Assembly (NCBI GenBank): GCA_000403335.2
Contig: KE159630.1
Span: 123,172-187,171 of the forward strand
Origin: Lachnospiraceae bacterium MD335
GTDB lineage: Bacteria; Bacillota; Clostridia; Lachnospirales; Lachnospiraceae
Direction of reading: 5' to 3'
Length of the DNA: 64,000 nt
Every line of letters begins with the position of its first letter. The stretch's first letter is position 1. The notes under the pieces were generated by a model. That model did not search any database. It saw only the letters and a list, made by a program, of their open reading frames with translations, and was not told where the DNA came from. The position numbers and the translations under genes were made by a program. This document shows positions 3,401 to 51,972 of the stretch, one piece after another.

Positions 3401-6400
3401 GGAGAGAAGATGTTACGGATAAGACGGTTATTTATGACCTTGGCATGAAGAAGTTTATTGCGGTTGGAGAGACAAAGCTTTCGGAACCGACAGATACGCT
3501 TTCTGCTTCCATTTTACCAAAGGCTGCAAACCAAAAAGTAAAATGGAGCTCTTCTGACAGTTATATTCTGAAATTTAATGATGATGAGAGCGGAAAAGCG
3601 GAGGGACGCGTAGTCGGTGAGGCAACTGTCACGGCAACCGCGGCAGACGGAAGCACAAATAAGGATGGCAAGCCGGTTATCGGAAAAACAACGGTAAAAG
3701 TAAGACGTATTATACAGGAGCTTTCCTTTACGCCGAAACCGATGGACGGCAAAGGTACCATATCGGTTGATAAGAATGGCAGAATAGAGATTGCCGAAGG
3801 AACGAGTATTAAGCTTGTGCCGACATATAATCCTGTTGATGCGACAGAGAAAAAATTAAAATGGACAAACGGGAATAAAAACGCGATAGAGCTGACAAAA
3901 GTAGAGGAGGGAACGAATGTTTTGGTCGTGACCGCGAAAAAGGTTGCACAGGATACGATTGTTAAGCTCAGAGCCGATGCAATGGATATGGGAGCGGCTT
4001 TCTGCGAAGTTGAATTTATCATAAAACCCAAGGTGGAAAAGATAAAAATTTTCCGTACGGATGATACCAATAGGGATAATAATCTCAGCGGAAAGAATAT
4101 CGGCATTGATCCGGAAAAGGATGACATGACCTTTAGCCTTATGACGGTAAATGAACCGGACAACGCGTCACAGATGGTTACATGGAAAATCAGCAACACA
4201 AAAGTAGCGGATTTTAAAGATAATGAGGACGGAACCTGTACGATTCAGGTAAAAGGAATGGGCACTGCGGTGATTACGGCGACCGCGACGGACGGCAGCA
4301 AAACGACTGCGGCCACGACGCTCAATGTAACCTCTCTTGCATCCAATGTTGATATTGAGGGAAGCAATGTTGTCATGAAAGGAAAGACGATTAAGCTCAA
4401 AGCGACCGTCTATCCAAAGTCTGCCCAAAATAAGAATATCCGGTGGACATCATCTGCTCCGGATCTTGCAAGTGTCAATCCAAATACTGGAGAGGTTAGA
4501 GGAATCAAGGCAGGTTTTGTGCTGATTACGGCGACTGCAAACGACGGAAGCGGTGCGTCGGGAACCCATGCGATATGGGTAAAAGATCCTGTGGAAGATT
4601 TTGATATTATGGAGCCTGACGGTGACGACAATATTAAAAATGACAAAATCCTTACGGGAAAAACGATCGGTCTTGACCCGGATGATGATAAAGGGACCTA
4701 TACGGTTGTTCCCAGGATTCTTCCGGATACGGCATGTCAGGATGTAGAATGGAAGTCAGGCAATGAAAAGATTGCGACGGTAGAAAATGGTGTTATCACT
4801 GCAAAGGCGCTTGGAAGAACGACAATTACAATGTCTGCGGTTGACGGCAGCGGCAGAAAGGCGAGCATTACGGTCAATATTGGTACGCTTGTAAAGAATA
4901 TTGAGATAACAGGCGGACATTACGTCGGAATCGATCAGGAGCTGCAGCTCAAAGCAAAGGTTGGCAACAAAGACGCGACAAGTAAGGCTGTTATTTGGAA
5001 AAGCGATAATCCGAGAGCCGCGACGATTGAGGAAGACGGTCTTGTCACAGGTATAAAAGACGGCGATGCGATTATCACGGCAGAGGCAGCCGACGGAAGC
5101 GGCGTTATTGCAGAGCACAGAATTTATGTGATAAAGGAAAAAAATGACGTCAGCATCAGCGCATATGATAACTGTACAGTATCGACGAAAAACAAGAGAA
5201 AATATGTAAAAGATAATTCCGGATATGACGATATTGATTTATCGAACAGAAAGAACTATGTGCTGCGTCTTAGAGCAGAATTAAGCAATGGTTCCAGCAT
5301 CAGGGACGGTGTGCCTATGGATATTAAGTGGAGCACTTCCGACAAAAGCATTGCGTCAATCGAGCCAGAAGAGAATAATTCCGGCATTGGAGTCGTAACA
5401 ATTCATAAGGCAGGAACGGTTAAAATCACTGCAATGACTGCAGAGGGATATGAAAAAAGTGAGTATGTGACGATGACCGTCACAAACACGAACCCATATG
5501 TGGAAATTACCGGACCGGGGCATCGTCTTGCCAGCGGGAAGAAGATGAAGCTTTCGACGGGAAGCATAGCGGTGGATTGGGCATCCGACAATGAATCCGT
5601 TGCGAAAGTAAACAATAAAGGACAAGTGACAGCATGTAAAGGCGCGGCAGGCACCGTAAATATTGTAGCGACAGCGCTTGACGGCATCAACGGAAAAGGG
5701 AATTCCGACACGTATACAATCTATGTAGGGGATCCGGTCAGTGAGGTTGACATAACAATGAATGGTTATACTGTTACCGGCGAGAAAATCGGAATTGACC
5801 TTATGAAGGGCTACAAGGAATCGAGCACCGTACGTCTTGATGCACTCTTGGATGGTGCGGTAAGCGACGATGTCACATGGAAATCCTCCAATAAGGGAAT
5901 TGCCGAACTGGATGAATACGGCTATGTGGACTTTAAGAAAAACGGAACGGTCACGTTTACGGCAACGGCAGGTGACGGAAGCAACAAAAAGGGAAAAGTG
6001 ACATTTGTTATCACAAAGCAGATCACAGGCATGAGTCCGGCAGGGGACATCGGCAATATTGATTTAGGCTATAAAAAATCCGTCCAGCTCAACATTGACT
6101 ATAAACCGCTTTCCTGCACAATGAAGAGGGCAAACTGGGAGAGCAGCGACCCGTCAGTTGTCAGTGTAAACAAAAAGAGCGGCAAAATAACAGGTAAATC
6201 GGAAGGCGTTGCAATTATCACGGCAACGGCGGCGGACAACAGCGATGTAAGCTGCAGCTTTACGGTAACGGTCGATTGTGCGGTAAATAAGGTTGAGATT
6301 GTCAAATCAAATCCGGGAACGGAACTGCCTGACAATGAGTATCAGGATGTAATCGGTATTGATTTAAGCACGGCAGTTAATACGGCTGCGCTAAAGGCAA

Positions 6401-6873
6401 ATCTTTATACAAAGGTTGGCAAAGAATATGAAGAAATCGGCAGTCAGCGCGTAAGCTGGAAATCAAGCAATGAAAAGATTGCCAAGGTTGACGAGAATGG
6501 AGTGGTTACCGCGATAAAGAGCGGCGAGGTAACGATTACCGCGACAGCGCTTGACGGAAGCAAAAAATCGGGAAAGGTAAAGGTATATATTGGAAAGCTT
6601 ATTAAGAGCCTTACGCCTTCTGATAAAATTAAAGACGGTATTACGCTGAATCTGAGAGGAACGAAAACACTGGAGATTGCGAAGGAGTTTAAAATAGCTC
6701 CGATTACCGCCACCAATCAGACGCTTGTATATACAAGCAGCGATAAAAAAATTGTGACGGTTAATGCAAAAGGAAAGATTACCGGAAAAAAGGTCGGGGA
6801 AGCGGAGATTATTGTCACGCCAAGAGACGGCTCGGGAATCGTAATCAGAATACCTGTTGAAGTAACAAAATAG
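457..6873 (+). CDS. Giant secreted surface protein with GLUG-like, InlB-type and about 14 Ig-like (Big_2-like) repeats
   Basis: This is a 2138-residue predicted extracellular protein. A signal peptide spans residues 1-31 (basic KRMKRM, a hydrophobic core, cleavage near VSA-AE). Residues about 35-185 are a low-complexity Thr/Glu/Ala stalk. Residues about 210-690 have repeated GGI-G and ENC-N motifs of GLUG or beta-helix type. Residues about 705-772 match an InlB B-repeat (Listeria-Bacteroides repeat), starting YEPNGG and ending YAGW. From about 775 to the end there are some 14 Ig-like units, most with a W-SS...V...G...I-A-A-DGS pattern typical of Big_2. The start at ATG 457 is set by GGGAGGAG at 446-453. 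The C-terminus lacks an LPXTG signal, SLH domains or a membrane anchor, so the mode of attachment is unclear. It is probably an adhesin or matrix protein. No enzyme motif is visible. It forms its own transcription unit. Confidence 0.88.
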   Translation: MQYKGFKRMKRMAAVILSAAIVLTDVPGVSAAEYGRTTKTGASEEMTAQDAVAKEAVEEKTTAEYMAEQTATAEETAETEGPVTPDTASVNETSKNTEADDEAAGEQTNTQNSADADEQASDFGVETGASQTETQTANTESEGSETQTAEAEETQTQETLTEEPVTEESASQEESASQQDTYVPIPDVDDSVYALEHADNTYMDNTASIVSYNASGTLEKNEQGVYSIDNKDQFMLFLSSDTDYSDSTVALNCDVDMKGGTAQRTKVFEGTFLGNGHSIYNYKADGALFKEIGANGEVKGLHFSAVTFSQERASAALALTNNGSISDITVNADMKVTKEMTAAAGIVLENAGRISGCVFAGSITADSATDNTTKTIGGIVSSNKGTIENCHALGSIQTNAAALGGIAGANSKIIKNCTNHMSITGAFYLGGIAAENTGTVSGCANYGAITQKSSSEDGLAGGITATNTEKISGCENYAAVSGEYKNIGGITGSSSGAVTDCGNYAGVSGSENVGGIIGLFNGTGDDETNLIQNSFNKGRIDAKANGSSRNLGIGGILGAASKNVTLKIENCYNTAGINGAAETKNIGGIVGVLYRGSISNVYNTGNISAAESTESFNPYAAMIAGFMGAEEEAAYANCLFLEGRSDTLCYRESGAVAGEDAKRTAGELKSADTVTVLGNGFASDDSNINDGYPVIKGQHAQTRKYVLVYEPNGGCADSYFSVSQNGASVSQPSSPVKRGASFMGWFKDKACTAKYNFSDSVTKSEVLYAGWESGKLVEDIILDQTEVTLVREETFNLKEKVRFVPESAENTALSFRSSDSSVATVDDAGIVKAVSEGTAKITVTMADGSLDKELTFKVNVSDKANIVRFKLYDDKSTAEITRLSISVNDPVTVQAVFGSEAPKDATVQWSSNRPDYVKVTGRTDLVNVNAVRLDGLKPTAQLDENSVDIMCTLIYPDHKTTFTSILKVTVKPLAEKVSVQAGREDVTDKTVIYDLGMKKFIAVGETKLSEPTDTLSASILPKAANQKVKWSSSDSYILKFNDDESGKAEGRVVGEATVTATAADGSTNKDGKPVIGKTTVKVRRIIQELSFTPKPMDGKGTISVDKNGRIEIAEGTSIKLVPTYNPVDATEKKLKWTNGNKNAIELTKVEEGTNVLVVTAKKVAQDTIVKLRADAMDMGAAFCEVEFIIKPKVEKIKIFRTDDTNRDNNLSGKNIGIDPEKDDMTFSLMTVNEPDNASQMVTWKISNTKVADFKDNEDGTCTIQVKGMGTAVITATATDGSKTTAATTLNVTSLASNVDIEGSNVVMKGKTIKLKATVYPKSAQNKNIRWTSSAPDLASVNPNTGEVRGIKAGFVLITATANDGSGASGTHAIWVKDPVEDFDIMEPDGDDNIKNDKILTGKTIGLDPDDDKGTYTVVPRILPDTACQDVEWKSGNEKIATVENGVITAKALGRTTITMSAVDGSGRKASITVNIGTLVKNIEITGGHYVGIDQELQLKAKVGNKDATSKAVIWKSDNPRAATIEEDGLVTGIKDGDAIITAEAADGSGVIAEHRIYVIKEKNDVSISAYDNCTVSTKNKRKYVKDNSGYDDIDLSNRKNYVLRLRAELSNGSSIRDGVPMDIKWSTSDKSIASIEPEENNSGIGVVTIHKAGTVKITAMTAEGYEKSEYVTMTVTNTNPYVEITGPGHRLASGKKMKLSTGSIAVDWASDNESVAKVNNKGQVTACKGAAGTVNIVATALDGINGKGNSDTYTIYVGDPVSEVDITMNGYTVTGEKIGIDLMKGYKESSTVRLDALLDGAVSDDVTWKSSNKGIAELDEYGYVDFKKNGTVTFTATAGDGSNKKGKVTFVITKQITGMSPAGDIGNIDLGYKKSVQLNIDYKPLSCTMKRANWESSDPSVVSVNKKSGKITGKSEGVAIITATAADNSDVSCSFTVTVDCAVNKVEIVKSNPGTELPDNEYQDVIGIDLSTAVNTAALKANLYTKVGKEYEEIGSQRVSWKSSNEKIAKVDENGVVTAIKSGEVTITATALDGSKKSGKVKVYIGKLIKSLTPSDKIKDGITLNLRGTKTLEIAKEFKIAPITATNQTLVYTSSDKKIVTVNAKGKITGKKVGEAEIIVTPRDGSGIVIRIPVEVTK
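955..990 (+). repeat. Two perfect tandem copies of an 18-bp unit in the stalk of the giant surface protein
   Basis: GAGGAGAGCGCATCGCAG occurs twice back to back, encoding EESASQ twice. Its length is a multiple of three, so copy-number change would alter the stalk without breaking the frame. Confidence 0.9.
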
Positions 6874-41735: not shown

Positions 41736-43199
41736 ATGCTTTTTAATTCCTATATTTTTGTATTTTTATTTTTTCCGCTGGTGGTGTTTGGGTATTATGC
41801 GTTTCACCACTGGAAAAAGCCGAAAATGGCGCTTGGCTGGCTGCTTTTGATGTCCATGCTGTTTTACGGTTATAACAGCATAGAGTATTTGTTTATTTTA
41901 ATTACGAGTGTTATTTTAAACTTTGGCGTGGTTGAGCTGATGAGCCGCGCGAAAAGGACTGCGCTGCGCAGGCTGCTGCTTGCAGCGGGACTTGGTGTAA
42001 ATTTGGGCATTTTGTTTTATTACAAATACTATGACTTTTTTATTGAAAATATCAATGCGTGGTTTCAGACAGACTATACTTTTTTGCGGTTGATGCTGCC
42101 GCTTGGCATTAGTTTTTATACGTTTCAGCAGCTCTCTTATGTGATTGATTCCTATCGCGGGGAGTGCGAAAAGTACGGTTTTTTGGAGTATGCATCGTAT
42201 GTGACTTTCTTTCCGCAGCTGATTGCGGGACCGATTGTGTATCATGACGAGCTGATTTGGCAGCTTCGTGATGAACGAAATCATAAAATCAACTACGAGA
42301 ATTTAGCCAAAGGACTATATGCGTTTTCATTAGGGCTTGCAAAAAAGGTCTTGATTGCGGATACGCTTTCGAAGATTGTGACGATTGGATATACGGATAT
42401 TCATCATATATATACAATAACCGTTATTATTATAACAATCTGCTATTCTTTACAGATCTATTTTGATTTCAGCGGATATTGTGATATGGCGTATGGAATC
42501 GGATATATGTTTAATGTAAAATTGCCGATAAACTTTAATTCGCCGTACAAGGCGGTTTCCGTGACGGATTTTTGGGACCGGTGGCATATGACGCTCACGC
42601 GTTTCTTTACAAAGTATGTTTATATTCCGCTTGGCGGCAGCAGGAAGGGGAAGCTGCGGACGTATTTCAATATTCTGATTGTCTTTTTGGTGAGCGGTTT
42701 TTGGCACGGTGCAAACTGGACATTTGTGCTTTGGGGTTTTTGGAATGGTGCGGCGAATGTGGCTGACAAGCTTGCGGGGCGTTTCTTGGAGTGGATTCCG
42801 AAAATAATCCGACGGATTGGCATCTTTCTTCTTGCAACATATGCGTGGGCGTTGTTTCGCGCTCCGTCGATTATTCAGGCAAAAAGGATGTGGAAGCATT
42901 TTAAGGAATTTGGGGGCGGTAAGGTATATCCGCCTATTTATGAAACCTTTAACAATCTGTTGGAGACGCGTGTATTGTATCGTCTGGGGCTGGGAGGAAT
43001 CATTGACCGCTGTCCGCTGCTTCCTCTTGCGGTTTTTATGCTGGCATTGATGTTTGCGTGCTTTTTCCTGAAAAATACGCAGGAGAAGGTGGAAGACGGA
43101 CATTACGGCAGGCGCCGTTTTATTGTGACGATTGGGCTGCTGTTTTGGAGTGTTCTTTCGCTTTCGGATGTGAGTGAGTTTTTGTATTTTAATTTTTAA
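41736..43199 (+). CDS. MBOAT-family O-acyltransferase (DltB/AlgI-like)
   Basis: A 487-residue polytopic membrane protein with about ten to twelve hydrophobic segments. It has FFPQLIAGPIVYH, FWDRWHMTL and GFWHGANWTFVLWG with the invariant His324. In DltB and AlgI this histidine lies at the cytoplasmic entrance of the acyl channel. The family passes acyl groups across the membrane to a secreted partner that acylates polysaccharide or teichoic acid. The next gene encodes a membrane-anchored SGNH-like protein, the expected partner type. The ribosome site is AAGAGG before ATG 41736. Confidence 0.93.
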   Translation: MLFNSYIFVFLFFPLVVFGYYAFHHWKKPKMALGWLLLMSMLFYGYNSIEYLFILITSVILNFGVVELMSRAKRTALRRLLLAAGLGVNLGILFYYKYYDFFIENINAWFQTDYTFLRLMLPLGISFYTFQQLSYVIDSYRGECEKYGFLEYASYVTFFPQLIAGPIVYHDELIWQLRDERNHKINYENLAKGLYAFSLGLAKKVLIADTLSKIVTIGYTDIHHIYTITVIIITICYSLQIYFDFSGYCDMAYGIGYMFNVKLPINFNSPYKAVSVTDFWDRWHMTLTRFFTKYVYIPLGGSRKGKLRTYFNILIVFLVSGFWHGANWTFVLWGFWNGAANVADKLAGRFLEWIPKIIRRIGIFLLATYAWALFRAPSIIQAKRMWKHFKEFGGGKVYPPIYETFNNLLETRVLYRLGLGGIIDRCPLLPLAVFMLALMFACFFLKNTQEKVEDGHYGRRRFIVTIGLLFWSVLSLSDVSEFLYFNF

Positions 43200-43219
43200 A
43201 AATGGAAGGAGAGAACGGA

Positions 43220-44272
43220 GTGCGTAAGTGGGTGATTGGATGTCTGACGACAATCCTGACAATTATAGTGATTATGACCGCAACGGCGTGGATTATCGAC
43301 CCGTATTTTCACTTTCACAAGCCGTTTCCGTTTGTTTCTTACCGTCTTTATGATGAGCGTTATACAAATGACGGCATATCAAGGCATTTTGAATATGATA
43401 CTATTATTACCGGAACTTCAATGGCGCAGAATTTTAAGCCAAGCGAAGTGGATGCAGTCTTTGGCGTAACATCCGTGAAGGAAACCTTTTCGGGTGCCGG
43501 ATTTAAGGAATTATCGCAGAATCTTGACAGGGCGCTTGCAAGAAAGAATGATTTAAAGACGGTAATTTGGTCAGTTGATTTTAATGCGATTATACGGGAT
43601 AAGGATTATGATATATACAGCGGTTATCCGGAGTATCTGTACGACGACAATCCATTCAATGATGTATGTTATATATTTAACAAAACAGTTTGGTATGAAG
43701 GAATTATACCGAATCTGATAATGACGCTTTTAGGGCATGAGCGTACGTCGCTTGACGAATATTCTGCGTGGGACAAGGAGCTTGGCTATGAGCATGTGAT
43801 GGCAGGCTATGACCGCTGGGAGGAGCGCGCCGAAATGCGGCCGGGGCTGAGTGCGGAAGAACAGAAAATGGTTGAGGACAATATCCGGCAGAATTTTGTG
43901 GAGCTTGTTAACAAATATCCGGATACGACATTTTATCTGTTTTATACGCCGTACAGTATTTGCTGGTGGGATTTTATGAACCAGGAGGGACTGATGCTTC
44001 AGCAGTTTGAGGCGGAGCGCATTACGACGGAATTGCTGCTGCAATGTCCGAATGTGAAGCTCTATAACTTTAATGACAAATATGATGTGATTACGGAATT
44101 CGACAACTACAGGGACAGGGAGCATTATGGCGCGCACATTAACTCGCAGATTTTGGAGTGGCTTGCCAAAGGAGAGGGGCTTGTGACTTTGGACAATTAC
44201 GAGGCGTTGTTGGAACAAGAGAAGCAATTTTATCTCAATTACAACTATGAGGAGAAGCTGAAAAATCCTTGA
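43220..44272 (+). CDS. Membrane-anchored SGNH-like protein, probable MBOAT partner (DltD/AlgJ-like role)
   Basis: A 350-residue protein. An N-terminal membrane anchor covers about residues 4-26. The extracytoplasmic part has GTSMAQ with Ser67 as the likely nucleophile and D299-R-E-H302 (DxxH) near the C-terminus, the SGNH catalytic pattern. Proteins of this type finish the O-acylation started by MBOAT. The start is most likely GTG 43220 with GGAGAG upstream. ATG 43202 has no ribosome site. The last codons and the stop at 44270 lie inside the first hairpin of a palindromic repeat (44259-44311), so the natural C-terminus may have been replaced by the element. Confidence 0.82.
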   Translation: MRKWVIGCLTTILTIIVIMTATAWIIDPYFHFHKPFPFVSYRLYDERYTNDGISRHFEYDTIITGTSMAQNFKPSEVDAVFGVTSVKETFSGAGFKELSQNLDRALARKNDLKTVIWSVDFNAIIRDKDYDIYSGYPEYLYDDNPFNDVCYIFNKTVWYEGIIPNLIMTLLGHERTSLDEYSAWDKELGYEHVMAGYDRWEERAEMRPGLSAEEQKMVEDNIRQNFVELVNKYPDTTFYLFYTPYSICWWDFMNQEGLMLQQFEAERITTELLLQCPNVKLYNFNDKYDVITEFDNYRDREHYGAHINSQILEWLAKGEGLVTLDNYEALLEQEKQFYLNYNYEEKLKNP

Positions 44273-44311
44273 TTTTTCAACTGGCAAATTTGTGCGGAGG
44301 CACAAATTCGC
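44259..44311. repeat. Double-hairpin palindromic repeat, copy 1, overlapping the end of the SGNH gene
   Basis: Hairpin 1 is TGAAAAATC/GATTTTTCA (44259-44267 with 44271-44279). Hairpin 2 is GCAAATTTGTGC (44284-44295) with GCACAAATTCGC (44300-44311), one G-T wobble and a four-base loop. Copies at 46076-46128 and 49328-49378 have the same plan, and the hairpin-2 arms of copy 3 are identical to these. Confidence 0.88.
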
Positions 44312-44327
44312 AAAGAAAGGAAAATAA

Positions 44328-46070
44328 ATGAATAATATAAAAAAGCTCGGCTATATTTTTGACAAAAAACAAAAGCGCAGGCTGGTATTTTTGGGAATAC
44401 TGATTTTTATCGGCGGTGTGCTGGAAACGCTTGGCGTATCGGCGCTTCTGCCTGTAGTTGCAGCGATTGTGGACGTGAATGCGACGATGGACAAGTGGTA
44501 TGTGCGTCCGGTGCTTGACGCGCTTCACATTTACGACCCGACACAGTTTATCGTCATTCTGCTGTCTGCGCTGATTGCAATTTATATTATCAAAAATGCG
44601 TATCTGCTCATTCTTGTCAATGTGCGGACGAAATTTATTACCTACAACAAAAATACCCTGATTAGCAGAGTGCTGCGGGAGTTTTTGAACCGTCCGTATG
44701 AATTTTATTTGGACGCGGACATTCCGACGGTTTTTCGTCTGACGGACAGCGATATTCCGAATGTGTTTAATATGATTATGGCAATCATATCGCTTGCGTC
44801 CGAAGTGATTGTGTTTGTGATGATTTGTATGGTGCTTGTCTTAAAGGACTGGAAAATGACGGGCTTTCTTGTAGTCGTGATGCTGGTTATGACACTTTTG
44901 CTGACAAAGATTTTAAAGCCGCAGTTAAGCCGTCTTGGAAAGAAAAATCAGGATATTCAGTCGCGGATTGCCAAATGGCGCATTGAGGCAATTTATGGAA
45001 TTAAGGACGTGAAAGTGCTGCACCGGGAGGCGTTTTTTGCGGATAATTATGAGGCGTCGGGCGAAATCGGCGCAGGAATTGCAAAGGTTTACGCAGTGCT
45101 CAACAGTCTTCCGCGGATATTGGTGGAGACGATTTTTATATGCAGTATTTTAGGGTATATTATGGTCTATATGCTGCTTGGAAACGATTTGCAGGCGCTG
45201 ATTGAGACACTGACCGTGTTCGGCGCGGCGGCAGTGCGCCTGATGCCCTGCGTCAACCGCATCAATACGTACATTACAGAGGTGGCATATGCGCAGCCGA
45301 GTTTGGATTATGTATATGAAAACCTGAACATGAGTGCGATTACGCGCGCAAATGACAGAACGGTCGAGGCAAAAAATCCGCTTGTTACAATTGCGTTGAA
45401 AGACAAAATTGAGCTGAAAAACATTCAGTACGCGTATCCGAACACGGACGCCATGATTTTTACGGGAGCGGATATGGTTGTGCCATACGGAAAGTCGGTC
45501 GGAATTATGGGACCTTCGGGTGCGGGAAAATCGACGGTTGTGGATATTTTGCTTGGTCTGTTAAGGGCGAAGGAAGGAACGATTACCTGCGACGGCGTGG
45601 ACGTGTTTGAGAACTATCCGTCATGGCTTGCGCAGATTGGATACATTCCGCAGTCGATTTATCTTGTGGATGAGCCAATCCGCAATAACATTGCGTTTGG
45701 CATTGCGGATGATGAGATTGAGGACAGGCGTATTTGGGAGGTTCTTGAGGAGGCGCAGCTAAAGGAGTTTATCGAAACGCTTCCAGAAGGGCTTGATACG
45801 ACAATCGGGGACCGTGGTGTGCGGCTTTCAGGCGGGCAAAGGCAGCGTCTTGGCATTGCGAGGGCGCTCTATCACAATCCTGAAATCCTTGTTTTTGACG
45901 AGGCGACAAGCGCGCTTGACAATGAGACGGAGGCAGCGGTTATGGAGGCGATTAACAGCTTTCACGGAAAAAAGACAATGGTTATTATTGCACATCGGTT
46001 AAATACGATTGAAAAGTGTGATATGATATATAGGGTGGCGGACGGGAAGATTGAACAAACCACTCTTTGA
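44328..46070 (+). CDS. ABC transporter, fused permease/ATPase (PglK/MsbA-like flippase)
   Basis: A 580-residue half-transporter. Six transmembrane segments lie in about residues 1-330. The ATPase domain has Walker A GPSGAGKST near residue 395, the signature LSGGQRQR, and Walker B ILVFDEATSALD, followed by the H-loop in IIAHRLNT. The length and its place in a glycan locus fit a lipid-linked oligosaccharide flippase such as PglK, working as a homodimer. A drug or lipid exporter is less likely here. The ribosome site GAAAGG before ATG 44328 lies just downstream of a palindromic repeat. A second copy of that repeat begins 5 bases after the stop. Confidence 0.9.
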   Translation: MNNIKKLGYIFDKKQKRRLVFLGILIFIGGVLETLGVSALLPVVAAIVDVNATMDKWYVRPVLDALHIYDPTQFIVILLSALIAIYIIKNAYLLILVNVRTKFITYNKNTLISRVLREFLNRPYEFYLDADIPTVFRLTDSDIPNVFNMIMAIISLASEVIVFVMICMVLVLKDWKMTGFLVVVMLVMTLLLTKILKPQLSRLGKKNQDIQSRIAKWRIEAIYGIKDVKVLHREAFFADNYEASGEIGAGIAKVYAVLNSLPRILVETIFICSILGYIMVYMLLGNDLQALIETLTVFGAAAVRLMPCVNRINTYITEVAYAQPSLDYVYENLNMSAITRANDRTVEAKNPLVTIALKDKIELKNIQYAYPNTDAMIFTGADMVVPYGKSVGIMGPSGAGKSTVVDILLGLLRAKEGTITCDGVDVFENYPSWLAQIGYIPQSIYLVDEPIRNNIAFGIADDEIEDRRIWEVLEEAQLKEFIETLPEGLDTTIGDRGVRLSGGQRQRLGIARALYHNPEILVFDEATSALDNETEAAVMEAINSFHGKKTMVIIAHRLNTIEKCDMIYRVADGKIEQTTL

Positions 46071-46075
46071 AAGTA

Positions 46076-46128
46076 CTGTGAAAAATAAATTTTTCACAGG
46101 GCAAATTTGTGCTTATGCCCCAATTTGC
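46076..46128. repeat. Double-hairpin palindromic repeat, copy 2, intergenic
   Basis: Hairpin 1 is CTGTGAAAAAT/ATTTTTCACAG (46076-46086 with 46089-46099), a perfect 11-bp stem. Hairpin 2 is GCAAATTTGTGC (46101-46112) with GCCCCAATTTGC (46117-46128), carrying two mismatches. There is no terminal T run, so it is unlikely to be a simple terminator. Confidence 0.85.
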
Positions 46129-46155
46129 AGGTTGTGAAAGGAGCATGGTTAATTT

Positions 46156-47199
46156 ATGAGCAGGAAACCGATTATCGCCACGGAGCTTTTAAAGGGGCAG
46201 GGACTGGGCAACCAGCTGTTCTGTTATGTGACGGTGCGCAGCCTTGCGCATGCAAAGGGATATGATTTCAGCATATTAAACAGGGAAATTTTTGCAAATA
46301 ATATACACAGTAACAAAGGCATGTATTTTATGGACCTTGACTGCGGTCCCGTTGTGCCCAGGGAGACATTTGATACCGTGTACCATGAGCGGGAGGAGCG
46401 GCTGTTTATCGGAAATTCAACGCATGACCTTGTGCATGGCTGTTATGTTGCGGGAGCGGATGAGGCGCTTTTGGAGCTTGATCAAACGACGCTTGTCTAT
46501 GGAAACCTTCAGGCATGGGCGTATTTTGGCAGGTACAGGAACGAGATTAAGAACTGGCTTGCGGTAAAACCAGCGTATGACTGTTATGCATACACCAGGG
46601 AGAACTTGTGTATTATCAATGTGCGCGGCGGCGAATATGCGGGAAATCCGGAGCTGTTTTTGCGGCGCAAATACTGGCTTGACGCGATAAAAAGGATGCG
46701 GGAAATCCGTTCCGATATGGAGTTTATGGTTGTGACGGATGATGTGGATGCGGCAGGGCGCGTGCTTCCGGAGGTGGAAGCGCATCATTTTGATCTTGCA
46801 AAGGATTATACAATAATAAAAAACGCTAGTTATTTAATTTTGTCAAATTCCTCATTTGCCTTTTTTCCTGCATTTACAAGCGAAACGGTGAAATTTGTGA
46901 TTGCGCCGAAGTATTGGGCAAGACATAATGTGTCGGATGGTTACTGGGCTTCGGAGCAGAATATCTATGACGGATTTTCTTATATGGACAGAAAAGGCAG
47001 GCTGTTTTCGGCGCAGGCGTGCAGGGATGAGCTTGCGGAATATAAAAGGTCTTCAAAAAAATATCAGAGAATTGGCGTACCGCTTGCAGGAACTGCATTG
47101 AGAGCGGCTAAGGTGAGAGCCAGAAGTCTGGTTTACGGTGATTTGTCGGTAAGGGCGCTGCGGTCATTAAAACGGCGGCTGGTATACCGTTTATTTTAG
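46156..47199 (+). CDS. GT11-like glycosyltransferase (fucosyltransferase-related)
   Basis: A 347-residue protein. The N-terminus KGQGLGNQLFCYV matches the GT11 opening motif. The central motif NVRGGEYAGN replaces the usual HxRRxDY, so donor binding may differ. LSNSSFAFFPAFTS matches the third motif. It is probably a fucosyltransferase-fold enzyme with a different donor or acceptor. The basic C-terminal tail (RSLKRRLVYRLF) may associate with the membrane. The ribosome site AAAGGAG is within a 17-base leader, TGAAAGGAGCATGGTTA, that recurs before the DUF4956 gene at 60111. Confidence 0.82.
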   Translation: MSRKPIIATELLKGQGLGNQLFCYVTVRSLAHAKGYDFSILNREIFANNIHSNKGMYFMDLDCGPVVPRETFDTVYHEREERLFIGNSTHDLVHGCYVAGADEALLELDQTTLVYGNLQAWAYFGRYRNEIKNWLAVKPAYDCYAYTRENLCIINVRGGEYAGNPELFLRRKYWLDAIKRMREIRSDMEFMVVTDDVDAAGRVLPEVEAHHFDLAKDYTIIKNASYLILSNSSFAFFPAFTSETVKFVIAPKYWARHNVSDGYWASEQNIYDGFSYMDRKGRLFSAQACRDELAEYKRSSKKYQRIGVPLAGTALRAAKVRARSLVYGDLSVRALRSLKRRLVYRLF

Positions 47200-47218
47200 G
47201 AAAGGGGCATGGTGAGGG

Positions 47219-47959
47219 ATGCAGGATAAGCTAAAATTGTCAAATGTCACACTGGCGGCGATGTCAAGCGTCAATATACGTGCGACGATTAAAGCCATGC
47301 GTTACAGTATGCGGGGAATTGAATTCGGCGATGCGGTGCTGATTACGCACAAAAAGCCGTTTGGACTGCCAAAGAGTATTCGCTACAGCCATACGGACAG
47401 GCTTTGTAATATTGACGATTTTAACTATAAAATGGTTTACGAGCTTGGCAGTCATATTCACACGGAGTTTGCGCTGATTGTGCATGCGGACGGCTTTGTG
47501 GTGCATCCGGAACTGTGGCGTGATTCGTTTTTGGACTACGACTATATCGGTGCGCCGTGGCCGCTGCCGCCAAAGGGTGATACGACCACTTACCGCGATA
47601 AGGACGGAAACATTTGCCGCGTGGGAAACAGTGCGGGGATTCGCAGCAAGCGTCTGATGGATTTTCCGAAAAAGGCAGGAATCCCGTGGGAGGGCGAGTA
47701 TGCTTACGGGCGGATGTGGTACTATGAGGACGGCTTTATCTGCTGTAAAATCCGCCATCTTTTGGAGGCGGAGGGGATGCGGATTGCGCCGCTTGAGGTG
47801 GCGAAGTATTACAGTCATGAGAAGATGATTCCGGAGATTGCGGGGATTACGCCGTTTGCCTTTCATAAATGGGAGGGAACGAATGCGCAGTATCCGAATT
47901 TTATCAGACCGCCGTTTAAGGAACGTGTAAAAAAGCTTTTACGTCATGGAAAAGCCTAA
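47219..47959 (+). CDS. DUF5672 family protein, putative glycosyltransferase
   Basis: A 246-residue soluble protein. It has FALIVHADGFVVHPELW followed by FLDYDYIGAPWP, the hallmark of DUF5672, and GNSAGIRSKRLMD with a later EDGFICC. The pattern of a DxD-like site, a GN-G turn and an ED motif fits a GT-A type transferase, but the family is not well characterised. AAAGGGG lies upstream of ATG 47219. It lies between the GT11-like and GT17 genes, so it probably adds one residue of the same glycan. Confidence 0.82.
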   Translation: MQDKLKLSNVTLAAMSSVNIRATIKAMRYSMRGIEFGDAVLITHKKPFGLPKSIRYSHTDRLCNIDDFNYKMVYELGSHIHTEFALIVHADGFVVHPELWRDSFLDYDYIGAPWPLPPKGDTTTYRDKDGNICRVGNSAGIRSKRLMDFPKKAGIPWEGEYAYGRMWYYEDGFICCKIRHLLEAEGMRIAPLEVAKYYSHEKMIPEIAGITPFAFHKWEGTNAQYPNFIRPPFKERVKKLLRHGKA

Positions 47960-47983
47960 TATAGAGAAAGAATGGGATTTTAG

Positions 47984-48934
47984 ATGGTTTACGATTGCTT
48001 TCAGTTTTTTAATGAACTTGATATTTTAAAAATCCGCCTGAATGTACTAAGCCCCGTGGTGGACCGGTTTGTCATCAGTGAGGCGACGGAGACGTTTTCA
48101 GGATTAAAAAAGCCGCTGTATTACGAGGAAAATAAGGAAATGTTTGCCGAATTTGCGGATAAGATTATCCACGTCGTCGTAGAGGATACACCGCAGGGAG
48201 ATACGCACTACCGTGATACGTTCCAAAAAAATGCGGTGACACGGGGACTAAAAGACTGTACGGATGATGATGTTGTAATATTCAGCGACCTGGATGAGAT
48301 ACCAAATCCCGATAAAATACGCGAAATTTTGCAGGATTTTCAAAATGATAAAATATATCACTTTGCACAGCGCCTTTTTTACTGTTATCTCAATATGGAG
48401 GAGGTATCGGGCAGCCTGCTCTCCTATGCGGGAGAGTTTGAAGGCGTGGAGCGCAAAAAGTGGATTGGCACGAAGATGTGCAGCTATCAGCTTTTGCGGG
48501 AGCAGGACTTAAAGCTTGGCGAACTGCGGTTTCCCGAGCGCAAAGAAATCGGTATCCGCGTGGATGACGGCGGCTGGCATTTTGGTTATATGGGCGGTCA
48601 TGGGGAGAAGGATATTCGAAAGCGCGTGCAGCAGAAGGTTGTATCGGCGGCGCATCAGGAATATAATTCAAAACATGTATTATCAAATGTGACGGACCAA
48701 ATTAAGGACGGCAAGGATATATTTGGCAGAAATGCACAGTTTGTGCGGTGCGAGATTGACGAGAGCTTTCCAAAGTATATCAGGGAGCACCAAAAAGAGC
48801 TTGATTTTCTGATTATGCATGAGGAAAAAGCAGCGGAAAAGGTATTGCGCCGCATGAAAGCGATAATAAAAAACGTGTGTTATGATATGCTGGTAACCAT
48901 AAAAAGAGCGGGAAAGAGAGTGTTGGGCAAATGA
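47984..48934 (+). CDS. Glycosyltransferase family 17
   Basis: A 316-residue protein. The N-terminus MVYDCFQFFNELDILKIRL and VDRFVISEATETFSG match GT17, known in animals as the bisecting N-acetylglucosaminyltransferase MGAT3. FSDLDEIPNPDKI provides the DxD-type metal site. GWHFGYMGG is the third conserved block. Bacterial members occur in surface-glycan loci, with donor unknown. The start is ATG 47984, 24 bases after the previous stop. Its stop overlaps the next start (ATGA), so the genes are coupled. Confidence 0.88.
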   Translation: MVYDCFQFFNELDILKIRLNVLSPVVDRFVISEATETFSGLKKPLYYEENKEMFAEFADKIIHVVVEDTPQGDTHYRDTFQKNAVTRGLKDCTDDDVVIFSDLDEIPNPDKIREILQDFQNDKIYHFAQRLFYCYLNMEEVSGSLLSYAGEFEGVERKKWIGTKMCSYQLLREQDLKLGELRFPERKEIGIRVDDGGWHFGYMGGHGEKDIRKRVQQKVVSAAHQEYNSKHVLSNVTDQIKDGKDIFGRNAQFVRCEIDESFPKYIREHQKELDFLIMHEEKAAEKVLRRMKAIIKNVCYDMLVTIKRAGKRVLGK

Positions 48935-49926
48935 CGGGAAATACGCCGAAGGTTTCGATTTGCGCGCCTGCTTATAACAATGCGCCGGAGGTGGAACGGC
49001 TGCTTTTGTCTGTATATGCGCAGACGTATACGGACTTTGAGGTCAATATCTCGGACGATTCTACAGATGATGAGGTAGAGCAGGTTGTCGCACAATATCA
49101 GAAACGCCATAAAAATATTCATTATATCCACAACGAGAAGCCATACGGGCATATTTTCAACTGGAATGCAGCGATAAAAATGGCACGCGGTGAATATATC
49201 AAGATTATGTTTAGCGACGACTGGTTTACGGATGCGGAAAGTCTTGGCGCATATGCGGCGCTTTTGGACAAGTCGCCCGACGCGTATCTTGCGTTTGCAG
49301 GCAGCAGGCAGGTTTCGCTGGACAACAGTGTGAAAATAAATTTTCACACGGCAAATTTGTGCAGTGGCACAAATTCGCAGGAATTTGACAGCTGTACGAG
49401 AGATTTGATGAAGTGTTACGACAGGCACGCCACGCCGCAGTTTATCGGCAGGCTGCGAAAAGATTACAGACATTTGTTTTTGGGAAATGAAATCGGCGCG
49501 CCAAGCGCAGTGATGTATCGGCGCGGGACATCGCTCACACTTTTTGATGAGAAGAGCAACTGGGCGTCGGATATGTACTTATATTTTGATTTGCTGAAAA
49601 AAAGTCCCAAATTTGTTTTCACAACAAAGCCGCTGATTTCTATAGGAGTGCATGACCACCAGTATACGGAGAGCTTTTCCGAGAAGGATCTGCGCATTTA
49701 CAATGATTACCGTTATATGTACGAGAAATACCGTCTGCGGGAGAGTAAGGAGTGCCGTGTATATTTTACAAAGCAGTTTATCGTGAAATACGGTAAGGGT
49801 TTGAGAGAAGCGAAGGCGCTTGGGATAGAGCCATCCTTGTATATCAAAGCGTGTGCCGGTGAGTTTTGTGACAGCGTGCGTTGCTTTGTCCGTGCCCGTC
49901 TTGGCGCAGGCAAAGAGAAAGGTTGA
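48931..49926 (+). CDS. Glycosyltransferase family 2 carrying an in-frame palindromic repeat
   Basis: A 331-residue GT-A enzyme. It has KVSICAPAYNNAPEVERLL, then SDDSTDDEVE, and FSDDWF as the metal-binding site. Residues 133-149 are encoded by a 51-base palindromic repeat (49328-49378) that also occurs outside genes. It adds 17 codons in frame, in what looks like a loop after the catalytic core. The frame stays open, so the protein is probably still made. The start overlaps the GT17 stop. Confidence 0.88.
   Translation: MTGNTPKVSICAPAYNNAPEVERLLLSVYAQTYTDFEVNISDDSTDDEVEQVVAQYQKRHKNIHYIHNEKPYGHIFNWNAAIKMARGEYIKIMFSDDWFTDAESLGAYAALLDKSPDAYLAFAGSRQVSLDNSVKINFHTANLCSGTNSQEFDSCTRDLMKCYDRHATPQFIGRLRKDYRHLFLGNEIGAPSAVMYRRGTSLTLFDEKSNWASDMYLYFDLLKKSPKFVFTTKPLISIGVHDHQYTESFSEKDLRIYNDYRYMYEKYRLRESKECRVYFTKQFIVKYGKGLREAKALGIEPSLYIKACAGEFCDSVRCFVRARLGAGKEKG
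49328..49378. repeat. Double-hairpin palindromic repeat, copy 3, in frame inside a GT2 gene
   Basis: Hairpin 1 is GTGTGAAAAT/ATTTTCACAC (49328-49337 with 49340-49349), perfect. Hairpin 2 is GCAAATTTGTGC (49351-49362) with GCACAAATTCGC (49367-49378). The length of 51 bases is a multiple of three and no stop is introduced. Confidence 0.9.
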
Positions 49927-49933
49927 AAATGCA

Positions 49934-50776
49934 ATGGAAAAAACAGATAACTTTTTCGTCATACACAATTTCAATACGGTTCCAAACGACCTGCTGGCGT
50001 ACTGTAAGGAGTATGTGATTTACGACTGCTCCACGGAGAGTGCGGTGAAAAAGCAGTTAAAGGATATGGGACTGAATATAAAAGAAGTGGAAAATACAGG
50101 GCACAATATCACAAGTTATTTTTCTTATTTTGACGAGCATTATGATGCGCTTCCTGAGGTGATGTGCCTGTTAAAGGGAAACATGATAGGCAGGCACTGC
50201 TCTAAAGCGTTTTTTGAACATACGTACAATAATAAGAGCTTTACCTTTTTGTATGATGAAAAGCAGTATTGGGACAGATTTTCAAAGTATAACGAAAACG
50301 GGGAAAGGAACGATGTGGGAAACACGTTTCTTGCGATGGAAAACGTCTATGTGGAGAAAAACGATTCATGGTATGCTGCGTCGGAAAATCATCCCAAGAA
50401 ATATTTTAACGATGCGGACGACTTACTGCGTTTTATCTACAAAAAGCCCATGATTCCGCAGTATTTCATGTTTGCGTCGGGCGCGTGTTATATTGTCCGC
50501 CGTGAGCAGGTTTTGCGGCACAGCAGGGAATTTTACCGGAATCTGAACAAGTTAATGAACTATGGGATGGCGCCAAGTTTTCCTTCCGAGGCACATCAGG
50601 TTGAACGGATTTTGCCAATTATCTTTCACTCGGTGTCAGAGGTTCAGGATTATATGAACGACGAGGCGGCGTTCGAGGCAAAGCTGCCGGAATGCAGCGC
50701 TTATATACAGTATAAGTACGAAAACAGACCAAGAAAATTTAAGAAACTCAGAAAAGCATTGGGATTGATACAATGA
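49934..50776 (+). CDS. DUF3431-like protein, putative glycosyltransferase
   Basis: A protein of about 280 residues. VIYDCSTESAVKKQ, then ENTGHNITSYFSYFDEHYDALPEVMCLLKGN recall DUF3431, where a similar stretch describes a GRE-x-YL pattern and a 'fLQG' strand. The C-terminal half has ASGACYIVRREQVLRHSREFYRNL and SEAHQVERILPIIF, also like that family. It has no membrane segment. The biochemical activity is unproven, but members lie in glycan loci. The start ATG 49934 follows AAAGG at 49917-49921. The stop overlaps the next start (ATGA). Confidence 0.7.
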   Translation: MEKTDNFFVIHNFNTVPNDLLAYCKEYVIYDCSTESAVKKQLKDMGLNIKEVENTGHNITSYFSYFDEHYDALPEVMCLLKGNMIGRHCSKAFFEHTYNNKSFTFLYDEKQYWDRFSKYNENGERNDVGNTFLAMENVYVEKNDSWYAASENHPKKYFNDADDLLRFIYKKPMIPQYFMFASGACYIVRREQVLRHSREFYRNLNKLMNYGMAPSFPSEAHQVERILPIIFHSVSEVQDYMNDEAAFEAKLPECSAYIQYKYENRPRKFKKLRKALGLIQ

Positions 50777-51972
50777 TTACGGAAAGAATGAACAAAATAG
50801 AAAAAACAGGTATGATATGCTTTTGGCTTGCTCTGATAACAGAGCTTGTCATTGTGATGATTGATAAAAGTGCATATATCAACCCGATAGAAGGGCAGCT
50901 GTTCCGGGTTACGTTTCTTCTTTGCTGCATCAAGATTGCGGCGACGAAATATTCGCGCAGCGAGTGGCTTTGCATCCTTTTGTTCGGCGCGGTCGCGTTT
51001 GTCTCTTATCTTGTCAATGAGCGCGACGAAACCGTCCGGATAGTGGCGTTCGTGGCGGCATGTAAGGGCGTAGATCTGAAAAAAATGCTGCGGGCGGCGC
51101 TTTGGATTACACTCACGGGATCGGTGATCTTGTTTGCCTTATCAGGACTGGGGATTTTTGGTGATTTTAAGATTACGGCAAATTTCGGAAGAGGAGAGTA
51201 TCCGAGCATTATTGAAACCCGTTACTGCTTTGGAATGGGGCATCCGAATGCGTTTCAGTGTATGCTGTTTATGATGATTACGCTTTGTTTGTATTTGTAT
51301 GCAGAGCGAATGAAATGGTATCATTTTCTGCTCCTGGAGTTTTTGAATTATTTTTCGTACCGTTATACGGATTCGAATACCGGATTTTTGGTGTGTACGG
51401 CAGTGATTGCAGGCGTGGCTTTGCTAAAATACTGCAAGCCGCTGCAAAAAAGCAGGGTAATTTATTTGTTGGGCGGATTGTTTGTAATCGGCATTGTCGT
51501 GTTTTCAGCGATTGGTTCCCATACGGGAATTGAGAACGAGCTGATAGACCGGCTTGATACCATTTTAAACGGAAGATTTAAGTTTGCGCACAGGATAGAG
51601 GCGGCGCGCGTTGAAAACTGGCTGCCGTTCGCCTCGGCGGCAAATACGGAATACTTTGATGCGGGGGTTATCCGTTTATTTTACTGGTACGGGATAATCC
51701 CGGGCGTGCTTTATGTGCTGATGAATTTGTATCTGATTTATCAAAGCTTCCGAAAGCAGGATTACACGATTGTCGTGATTGTGGCGGGGTATACGCTGTT
51801 TACGATTATGGAGGCGCACTTAATCTCCTTTTACATTCTGCGGAATTATCTGTTTATCCTTATGGGCTTTTACTGGTATCAGCCGTTTGCAAAGCAGGAT
51901 CGGTTTGAAGGATATTTTTGGCAGGTAAGAAAATGGATAAATCTGCAGGTAAAGAAAGAGTATGGTGATTGA
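50773..51972 (+). CDS. Wzy-like polysaccharide polymerase / O-antigen ligase-like membrane protein, putative
   Basis: A 399-residue protein with about ten hydrophobic segments and a large extracytoplasmic loop between residues of about 245 and 305. The loop starts IGSHTGIENELIDRLDTILNGRFKFAHR, close to the pattern ('L.gR...w') seen in Wzy polymerases and Wzx-linked ligases. It would join repeat units outside the membrane. Sequence conservation in this class is poor, so the call rests on topology, loop and context. The start ATG 50773 overlaps the previous stop. Confidence 0.75.
   Translation: MITERMNKIEKTGMICFWLALITELVIVMIDKSAYINPIEGQLFRVTFLLCCIKIAATKYSRSEWLCILLFGAVAFVSYLVNERDETVRIVAFVAACKGVDLKKMLRAALWITLTGSVILFALSGLGIFGDFKITANFGRGEYPSIIETRYCFGMGHPNAFQCMLFMMITLCLYLYAERMKWYHFLLLEFLNYFSYRYTDSNTGFLVCTAVIAGVALLKYCKPLQKSRVIYLLGGLFVIGIVVFSAIGSHTGIENELIDRLDTILNGRFKFAHRIEAARVENWLPFASAANTEYFDAGVIRLFYWYGIIPGVLYVLMNLYLIYQSFRKQDYTIVVIVAGYTLFTIMEAHLISFYILRNYLFILMGFYWYQPFAKQDRFEGYFWQVRKWINLQVKKEYGD

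Follow-up and report, generated by a model that had tools for sequence, protein, structure and literature searches.

Mobile elements of the IS200/IS605 type have hairpin ends and insert 3′ of a short target in a fixed orientation and without duplication. Among smaller repeats, the Rickettsia palindromic elements (RPE) are recorded, in the part of the account available, as in-frame insertions in 19 reading frames (PMC2229807). The termini of REP elements can supply stop codons for flanking genes, according to excerpts of a second source (PMC3733652), and the pneumococcal BOX, RUP and SPRITE repeats have many copies between convergent genes, in both orientations, in the sections available of a third (PMC3049150). 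Those same portions of the three texts describe no family placed between a Shine-Dalgarno sequence (SD) and a start codon (PMC2229807, PMC3733652, PMC3049150).

The repeat analysed here overlaps in part with each of the smaller repeats. Like RPE, as far as the available part of that account goes, it is a small dispersed palindrome with an in-frame insertion in a protein gene (PMC2229807), but mid-gene copies are rare, most copies lie just ahead of start codons with an SD tail, and the host organisms differ. Like the REP and BIME repeats with RAYT (the GTAG family), it is palindromic and intergenic, and its copy at 44259 provides a neighbouring gene with a stop codon, as the excerpts report for REPs (PMC3733652). 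Unlike REPs, which are reported mainly downstream of genes, the present copies lie upstream, the REP-type GTAG stands directly ahead of the stem in just 11 of 143 copies, and no linked Y1 transposase was found. With the pneumococcal repeats and the enterobacterial ERIC and RU MITEs it shares a small, structured, non-autonomous and multi-copy nature, and some copies with open frames (PMC3049150, PMC2229807, available portions). In contrast to them, it has no terminal inverted repeat (one copy tested) and no consistent target duplication, and its position is tied to the SD and start codon instead of convergent-gene gaps. In the partial literature coverage at hand we recognised no published description of the repeat, which does not show that it is absent from print.

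A family of two-hairpin repeats

A double-hairpin repeat occurs three times in the window, meaning the whole stretch of 64,000 nucleotides that was analysed: at 44259-44311, 46076-46128 and 49328-49378. The original prediction had treated them as one repeat, and their grouping in repeat family D3, their alignment and their shared two-hairpin fold bear this out. On the + strand each copy folds into two hairpins, with z-scores of −4.49, −3.84 and −5.25, and for each of the three, 0 of 200 shuffles folded as well. The two copies outside the glycosyltransferase gene are intercistronic:

44259-44327, + strand: intercistronic copy, with hairpins at 44259-44311 and a tail with AAAGGA, up to the start codon at 44328
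46076-46155, + strand: intercistronic copy, with hairpins at 46076-46128 and the tail SD AAAGGAG, up to the start codon at 46156

Hairpin 1 of the 44259 copy contains the stop codon (44270-44272) of the upstream ORF. For the 46076 copy, the relatives L114 and L115 lack the element between the same two genes; pairwise alignment gives gaps of 68 and 89 nt that are not cleanly placed. The hairpin-2 arms GCAAATTTGTGC and GCACAAATTCGC are identical in the first and third copies, as had been pointed out, but the recent spread read from this does not follow from arm identity alone, because the same arms recur widely in other copies. Elsewhere in the window, positions 3600-6600 hold repeats of 34-62 nt (families D1, D2, D9 and D12).

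The 13-mer GGCAAATTTGTGC occurs 26 times as an exact match in the 4.96-Mb genome from which the window comes (the own genome), against 0 for the reversed pattern, so its copy number exceeds chance. In a covariance model built from 13 copies (R1), stem 1 covaries, with two-sided changes at 7 of 12 pairs, while stem 2 shows little variation; the covariation score of the whole structure was reached by 0 of 500 shuffles. The genome search that had been proposed for further copies returned 63 R1 matches in the own genome at E≤0.01, and 87 at E≤1, some of which are the opposite strand of one site. Across the genus, R1 matches occur in 35 of 38 genomes, the own genome included, at 0 to 63 per genome. 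Of 299 genomes sampled from the family, at least 32 match at E≤0.001; the true number may be higher, since no more than 17 candidates were scored per genome. Three loci (L105, L357 and L094) carry tandem copies at a spacing of 81-84 nt. The family is dispersed, with presence differing between relatives at many sites, and it has the traits of a MITE in being non-autonomous, multi-copy and variably present. The repeat is a multi-copy mobile element that has moved repeatedly within a group of Lachnospiraceae.

For counts of position, 76 own-genome matches were reduced to 71 copies, 5 being the same place in two loci; these 71 include weak matches, 8 having a genome-wide E above 0.01. From other genomes we took 40 of the 59 matches of one search, omitting 14 weaker loci (L232-L245), a second L094 copy and 4 opposite-strand shadows, together with 61 matches of another search; of the 49 matches in genome G025, 11 were used, picked for loci without a shared copy in genome G000. 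The resulting 172 copies became 159 (70 own, 89 from other genomes) once 13 with similar flanks had been dropped, and since the other-genome copies are mostly the best-scoring ones, the set favours intact copies. Sixteen of the 159 lack the stem-1 NTG, leaving 143, and 12 of these lack a downstream start in the frame test, leaving 131. The structure alignment (A4) holds 49 sequences.

The insert in the glycosyltransferase gene

The third copy lies within a gene for a family 2 glycosyltransferase (GT2), with the following features:

48931-49926, + strand: host gene, 331 aa, Pfam PF00535 (E 2.5e-23)
49328-49349, + strand: hairpin 1, 9-bp stem GTGTGAAAA/TTTTCACAC, from the fold
49330-49407, + strand: whole insert, 78 nt, 26 codons VKINFHTANLCSGTNSQEFDSCTRDL, residues 134-159 (V134-L159), absent in L113-L117
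49351-49378, + strand: hairpin 2, GCAAATTTGTGC / GCACAAATTCGC, with an A.C mismatch, from the fold; stem-2 pairs counted in 13 copies
49379-49407, + strand: element tail, 29 nt, matching in position the SD tail of other copies
49408-49410, + strand: ATG codon, Met160, adjoining the insert on its 3′ side; Met is found there in L113-L117 and L142

The PF00535 match ends at residue 132, just ahead of the repeat, and the ORF remains open through the copy at 49328-49378, in agreement with the prediction of an in-frame repeat without a stop. The addition had been put at exactly 17 codons, residues 133-149; the insert instead measures 78 nt or 26 codons, residues 134-159, as it includes the 29-nt tail. 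This extent comes from a scan of named genome contigs, which gave 62 loci with relatives of the gene, for the most part under Lachnospiraceae titles; 61 were aligned and L173 (23% match) was omitted. In L113-L117 (74-86% identical), residues 134-159 are missing and LDN/LDD runs almost straight into MKxYDR, and this comparison upholds the view of the stretch as an insertion and not ancestral sequence. Among the 61 aligned homologues, L112 (95% identical) alone has the same sequence at these residues, identical over all 78 nt, whereas the surrounding 3.1-kb match is 93.4% alike. The main gap is 78 nt against L113, L114 and L115, differently placed for L113, and is split against L116. L115 reads GACGACAGT directly ahead of the gap, and the first two bases of hairpin 1 may be target sequence. 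The more distant homologues have other loops, of 0-19 residues opposite positions 133-149, which look unrelated in sequence; because such loops occur there, the site tolerates insertion.

The Met160 codon at the end of the insert is, judging from the homologues, ancestral. It lies at +30 from the end of stem 2, a register found in other copies, and the tail ahead of it contains a weak SD only, GAGAG. Without the insert, the gene has 18 ATGs per 918 nt, and the chance of an insert directly ahead of an ATG is near 2%, which is suggestive only. In the AlphaFold model of the protein (mean pLDDT 87.5, pTM 0.83, 242 of 331 residues at ≥90), residues 132-158 form the only run of at least 3 residues with pLDDT <50. 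This stretch is predicted to sit between two strands of the well-predicted fold, and the model suggests that the 26-residue addition is probably a flexible loop.

Copies at start codons and the corresponding empty sites

In the own genome, 43 of the 71 copies have a start codon at +26 to +30 from the end of stem 2. Within 75 nt, 126 of the 159 copies have a sense SD, a start codon and an open frame of 60 codons or more, whereas only 4 of 159 passed when the antisense side was tested in this way. Own-genome copies passed the sense test in 62 of 70 cases, and on visual inspection five or more of the remaining eight likewise lie ahead of a gene. As far as these counts reach, the usual location is in sense orientation, just upstream of a start codon, and part of this bias in position and orientation could come from selection against harmful insertions. 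An SD-like motif lies 3-12 nt ahead of the stem-1 NTG in 107 of 143 copies, against 23-34 of 143 at control positions 20-60 nt further upstream (five offsets), and it follows that the copies have an SD-like motif upstream and a second such motif in the tail. The tails themselves are variable, with 82 of 159 fitting none of three simple patterns. Directly ahead of the outer stem pairs, 89 of 143 copies have the dinucleotide TA, and in 141 of them all the second of these two bases is A.

Filled and empty sites were compared by pairwise alignment in 31 pairs at 19 sites, and at 9 of the 19 the main gap was 76-80 nt (filled/empty locus; recF, soj, addA and rpmJ here, and atpC below, are names that we take from the translated flanks):

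L027/L380: gap of 79 nt
L208/L256 (recF): gap of 77 nt, accompanied by a small further gap
L203/L254 (soj): gap of 80 nt, accompanied by a small further gap
L047/L388: gap of 78 nt at the upstream stop codon, accompanied by a small further gap
L026/L395: gap of 80 nt
L031/L393: gap of 76 nt
L214/L285 (addA): gap of 80 nt, with 4 mismatches in the 14 bases left of the gap
L043/L399 (rpmJ): gap of 78 nt
GT2/L115: gap of 78 nt

In 18 of the 31 comparisons the main gap fell outside 76-80 nt (21-89 nt, often split), and the alignments often leave the exact junctions unclear. At six sites (L208, L203, L026, L031, L214 and L043) the empty site reads as the spacer that separates an SD-like motif from the start codon; the empty recF site, GAGGA^TATAGAATG, accepted the element with no loss on the right. 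At L027 the gap slides across GGAGG, which makes a position before or after the SD ambiguous, and GGAGG on both sides could reflect either a duplication or the SD that belongs to the element; at the remaining sites of the nine, no constant target duplication was seen. By eye, the insertion appears upstream of the target's own SD at L199, L204 and L217, so the preference for the spacer is not absolute. Also by eye, the element at L032, compared with L391, lies ~13 nt inside the 5′ end of the gene, and the old frame stops at a TGA overlapping the new ATG, while the addA copy of G000 shows an apparent deletion between two TTGAAA repeats that left the tail.

Proposed mechanism, alternatives and mobility

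We consider the repeat to be a new MITE/REP-like non-autonomous mobile element of ~76-80 nt that targets ribosome-binding sites (RBS), with a probability of roughly 0.7. The element comprises hairpin 1 (core NTGAAAAAT..ATTTTTCA), hairpin 2 (GGCAAATTTGTGC..GCACAAATTCGC) and a tail of ~25-30 nt, usually with an SD, and would insert whole, as one unit, preferably 3′ of a purine-rich, SD-like and often TA-ended target on the coding strand. Its frequent landing between SD and start codon would be due to the preference for an SD-like target. The tail SD would then serve the downstream gene while the old SD remains upstream, and expression presumably survives the insertion, which would make the element tolerable in housekeeping operons. 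In the GT2 gene, the same kind of unit landed ahead of an internal ATG, in frame, and added 26 residues; this copy is a rare side event, and the usual home of the element is the translation-initiation region. The family, its variable presence, the size and position of the insertion at several sites, the sense orientation, the SD tail and the GT2 insert are direct observations. We infer that insertion is targeted and fixed in orientation, without constant duplication, and that translation is preserved after it.

Selection alone could in principle produce the same picture, if insertion were random and only sense copies in the spacer ahead of a start codon survived: with an SD of its own, the element would do no harm at exactly such places, and copies inside genes would be purged. 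On that view, neutral spots such as the intervals between convergent genes ought to be rich in copies of either orientation, which is what the available sections describe for BOX, RUP and SPRITE (PMC3049150), yet the sense and antisense tests were passed by 126 and 4 of 159 copies; we find random insertion quite unlikely. That the repeat is a cis-regulatory RNA of 5′ regions, a riboregulator or protein-binding site conserved or spread through translation control, is suggested by the mainly sense copies adjoining start codons, the covariation of stem 1 and the stable folds, and is nonetheless unlikely. The downstream proteins of the own genome (61 of 62 frames analysed, that of L055 omitted) matched 133 Pfam families, of which the most frequent was found in 3 of the 61 proteins, and no NCBIfam family occurred in more than 2. 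Hsp70, a class I tRNA synthetase, ribosomal L1 and cytidylate kinase are among them. A regulon was rejected because these proteins have no common family or function. Rfam gave 0 matches at gathering score in 10 loci and, by E-value, 3 weak matches in the window at 43000-51000, none at gathering score. At the same gene, moreover, the element can be present in one and missing from the other of G000 and G025, two genomes with 95% identity between their GT2 proteins.

A protein-coding palindromic element like RPE, whose spread or tolerance depends on the peptide it adds, is a most improbable description of the family, although both the window and L112 carry the GT2 copy in frame, with all 78 nucleotides the same. 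When the interval between the NTG of stem 1 and the following start codon was sorted by frame, the classes were 48, 37 and 46 among 131 copies. These show no reading-frame preference and, being even, no sign of peptide selection. In 20 of the 131, GT2 included, an uninterrupted frame links the stem-1 NTG with the next start, and there N-terminal extensions are possible but unproven, and stem 1 of several copies contains stops. A coding mini-ORF from the stem-1 NTG (NTG AAA AAT), appealing when copies were viewed singly, was set aside on the even classes and the early stops of many copies, and its coding role is kept as a possibility. The mid-gene test of the 172 copies flagged 20 rows, 4 sense (L033, which is GT2, L226, L369 and L379) and 16 antisense, five of the latter in the own genome (L027, L029, L033, L043 and L044); we took the antisense frames as spurious and L226, L369 and L379 as N-terminal run-ons. 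L071 and L085, also flagged in another test, have frames that start just ahead of the element. GT2 is then, as we read it, the sole mid-gene copy among 70 distinct own-genome sites. The analogy with RPE thus holds for an in-frame insertion within a dispersed palindromic family and is not supported for a protein-coding class of element. It is scarcely credible that residues 134-159 are ancestral sequence or an assembly artefact: loops do exist at this site in distant homologues, but these look unrelated, the nearest insert-free homologues (L113-L117) read straight through, and a separate public contig (L112) carries the same insert.

Returning to a mobile element at translation-initiation sites, we suspect that it is moved by an enzyme acting in trans, possibly on single-stranded DNA, a route suggested by the hairpins, the lack of consistent target duplication and the lack of a terminal inverted repeat; in the GT2 copy, the only one compared, the 15 nt at one end of the insert are not complementary to the 15 nt at the other. 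The hairpin ends resemble those of IS200/IS605-type elements, and oriented, duplication-free insertion 3′ of a short target would fit them. The Y1 transposase locus of the own genome, part of which reads N, has different inverted repeats, however, and among 31 Y1 loci (2 own, 29 from the genus) R1 gave a single weak match (E 0.035). A link to the Y1 transposase was rejected on these grounds: the element does not have ends in common with the Y1 element of its own genome, and no Y1 (RAYT) transposase flanked by copies, as in REP systems, was found in these loci. Duplication of a TA target was also discarded, as TA stands on the left in 89 of 143 copies yet is not constantly repeated on the right at the nine sites.

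A more far-reaching version, which we hold only tentatively, is that the element homes to the RBS and carries a full re-initiation cassette, allowing near cost-free spread through operons with occasional peptide splicing. A putative mobility system would recognise the SD-like, often TA-ended sequence of the coding strand, and the cassette would consist of a potential NTG start fed by the target SD, stop codons, a new SD and sometimes its own ATG. If this is true, the element could spread through essential-gene operons at almost no cost. Small mobile repeats are usually pictured in dispensable gaps, whereas this family persists at a highly sensitive location, around the RBS and start codon, apparently because it supplies a replacement. 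Should this be confirmed, the family would offer a testable example of mobile DNA aimed at translation-initiation sites; it would also be a source of peptides added at N-termini or within proteins, and would provide a large natural series of 5′-region variants ahead of housekeeping genes (read as atpC, recF, soj and rpmJ).

Several minor observations concern related sequences. L369 (G001) and L379 (G300) are a near-identical locus with the element in two genera, for which horizontal transfer is possible. L100 and L389 carry a variant with a similar hairpin 1 and a different second half (ATCCTGATTTG..), just upstream or in place of the main element. Ahead of the presumed rpmJ, L401, L400 and L414 have an altered hairpin or tail-like remnant, which looks like decay in place. 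By eye, a second palindromic repeat, of the GAAATTCTAA / TTTCTAA type, also occupies intercistronic gaps (L252, L260, L255, L081 and L088), and ahead of the presumed atpC it fills the gap in G000 and G004, a position taken in G025 by the main element.
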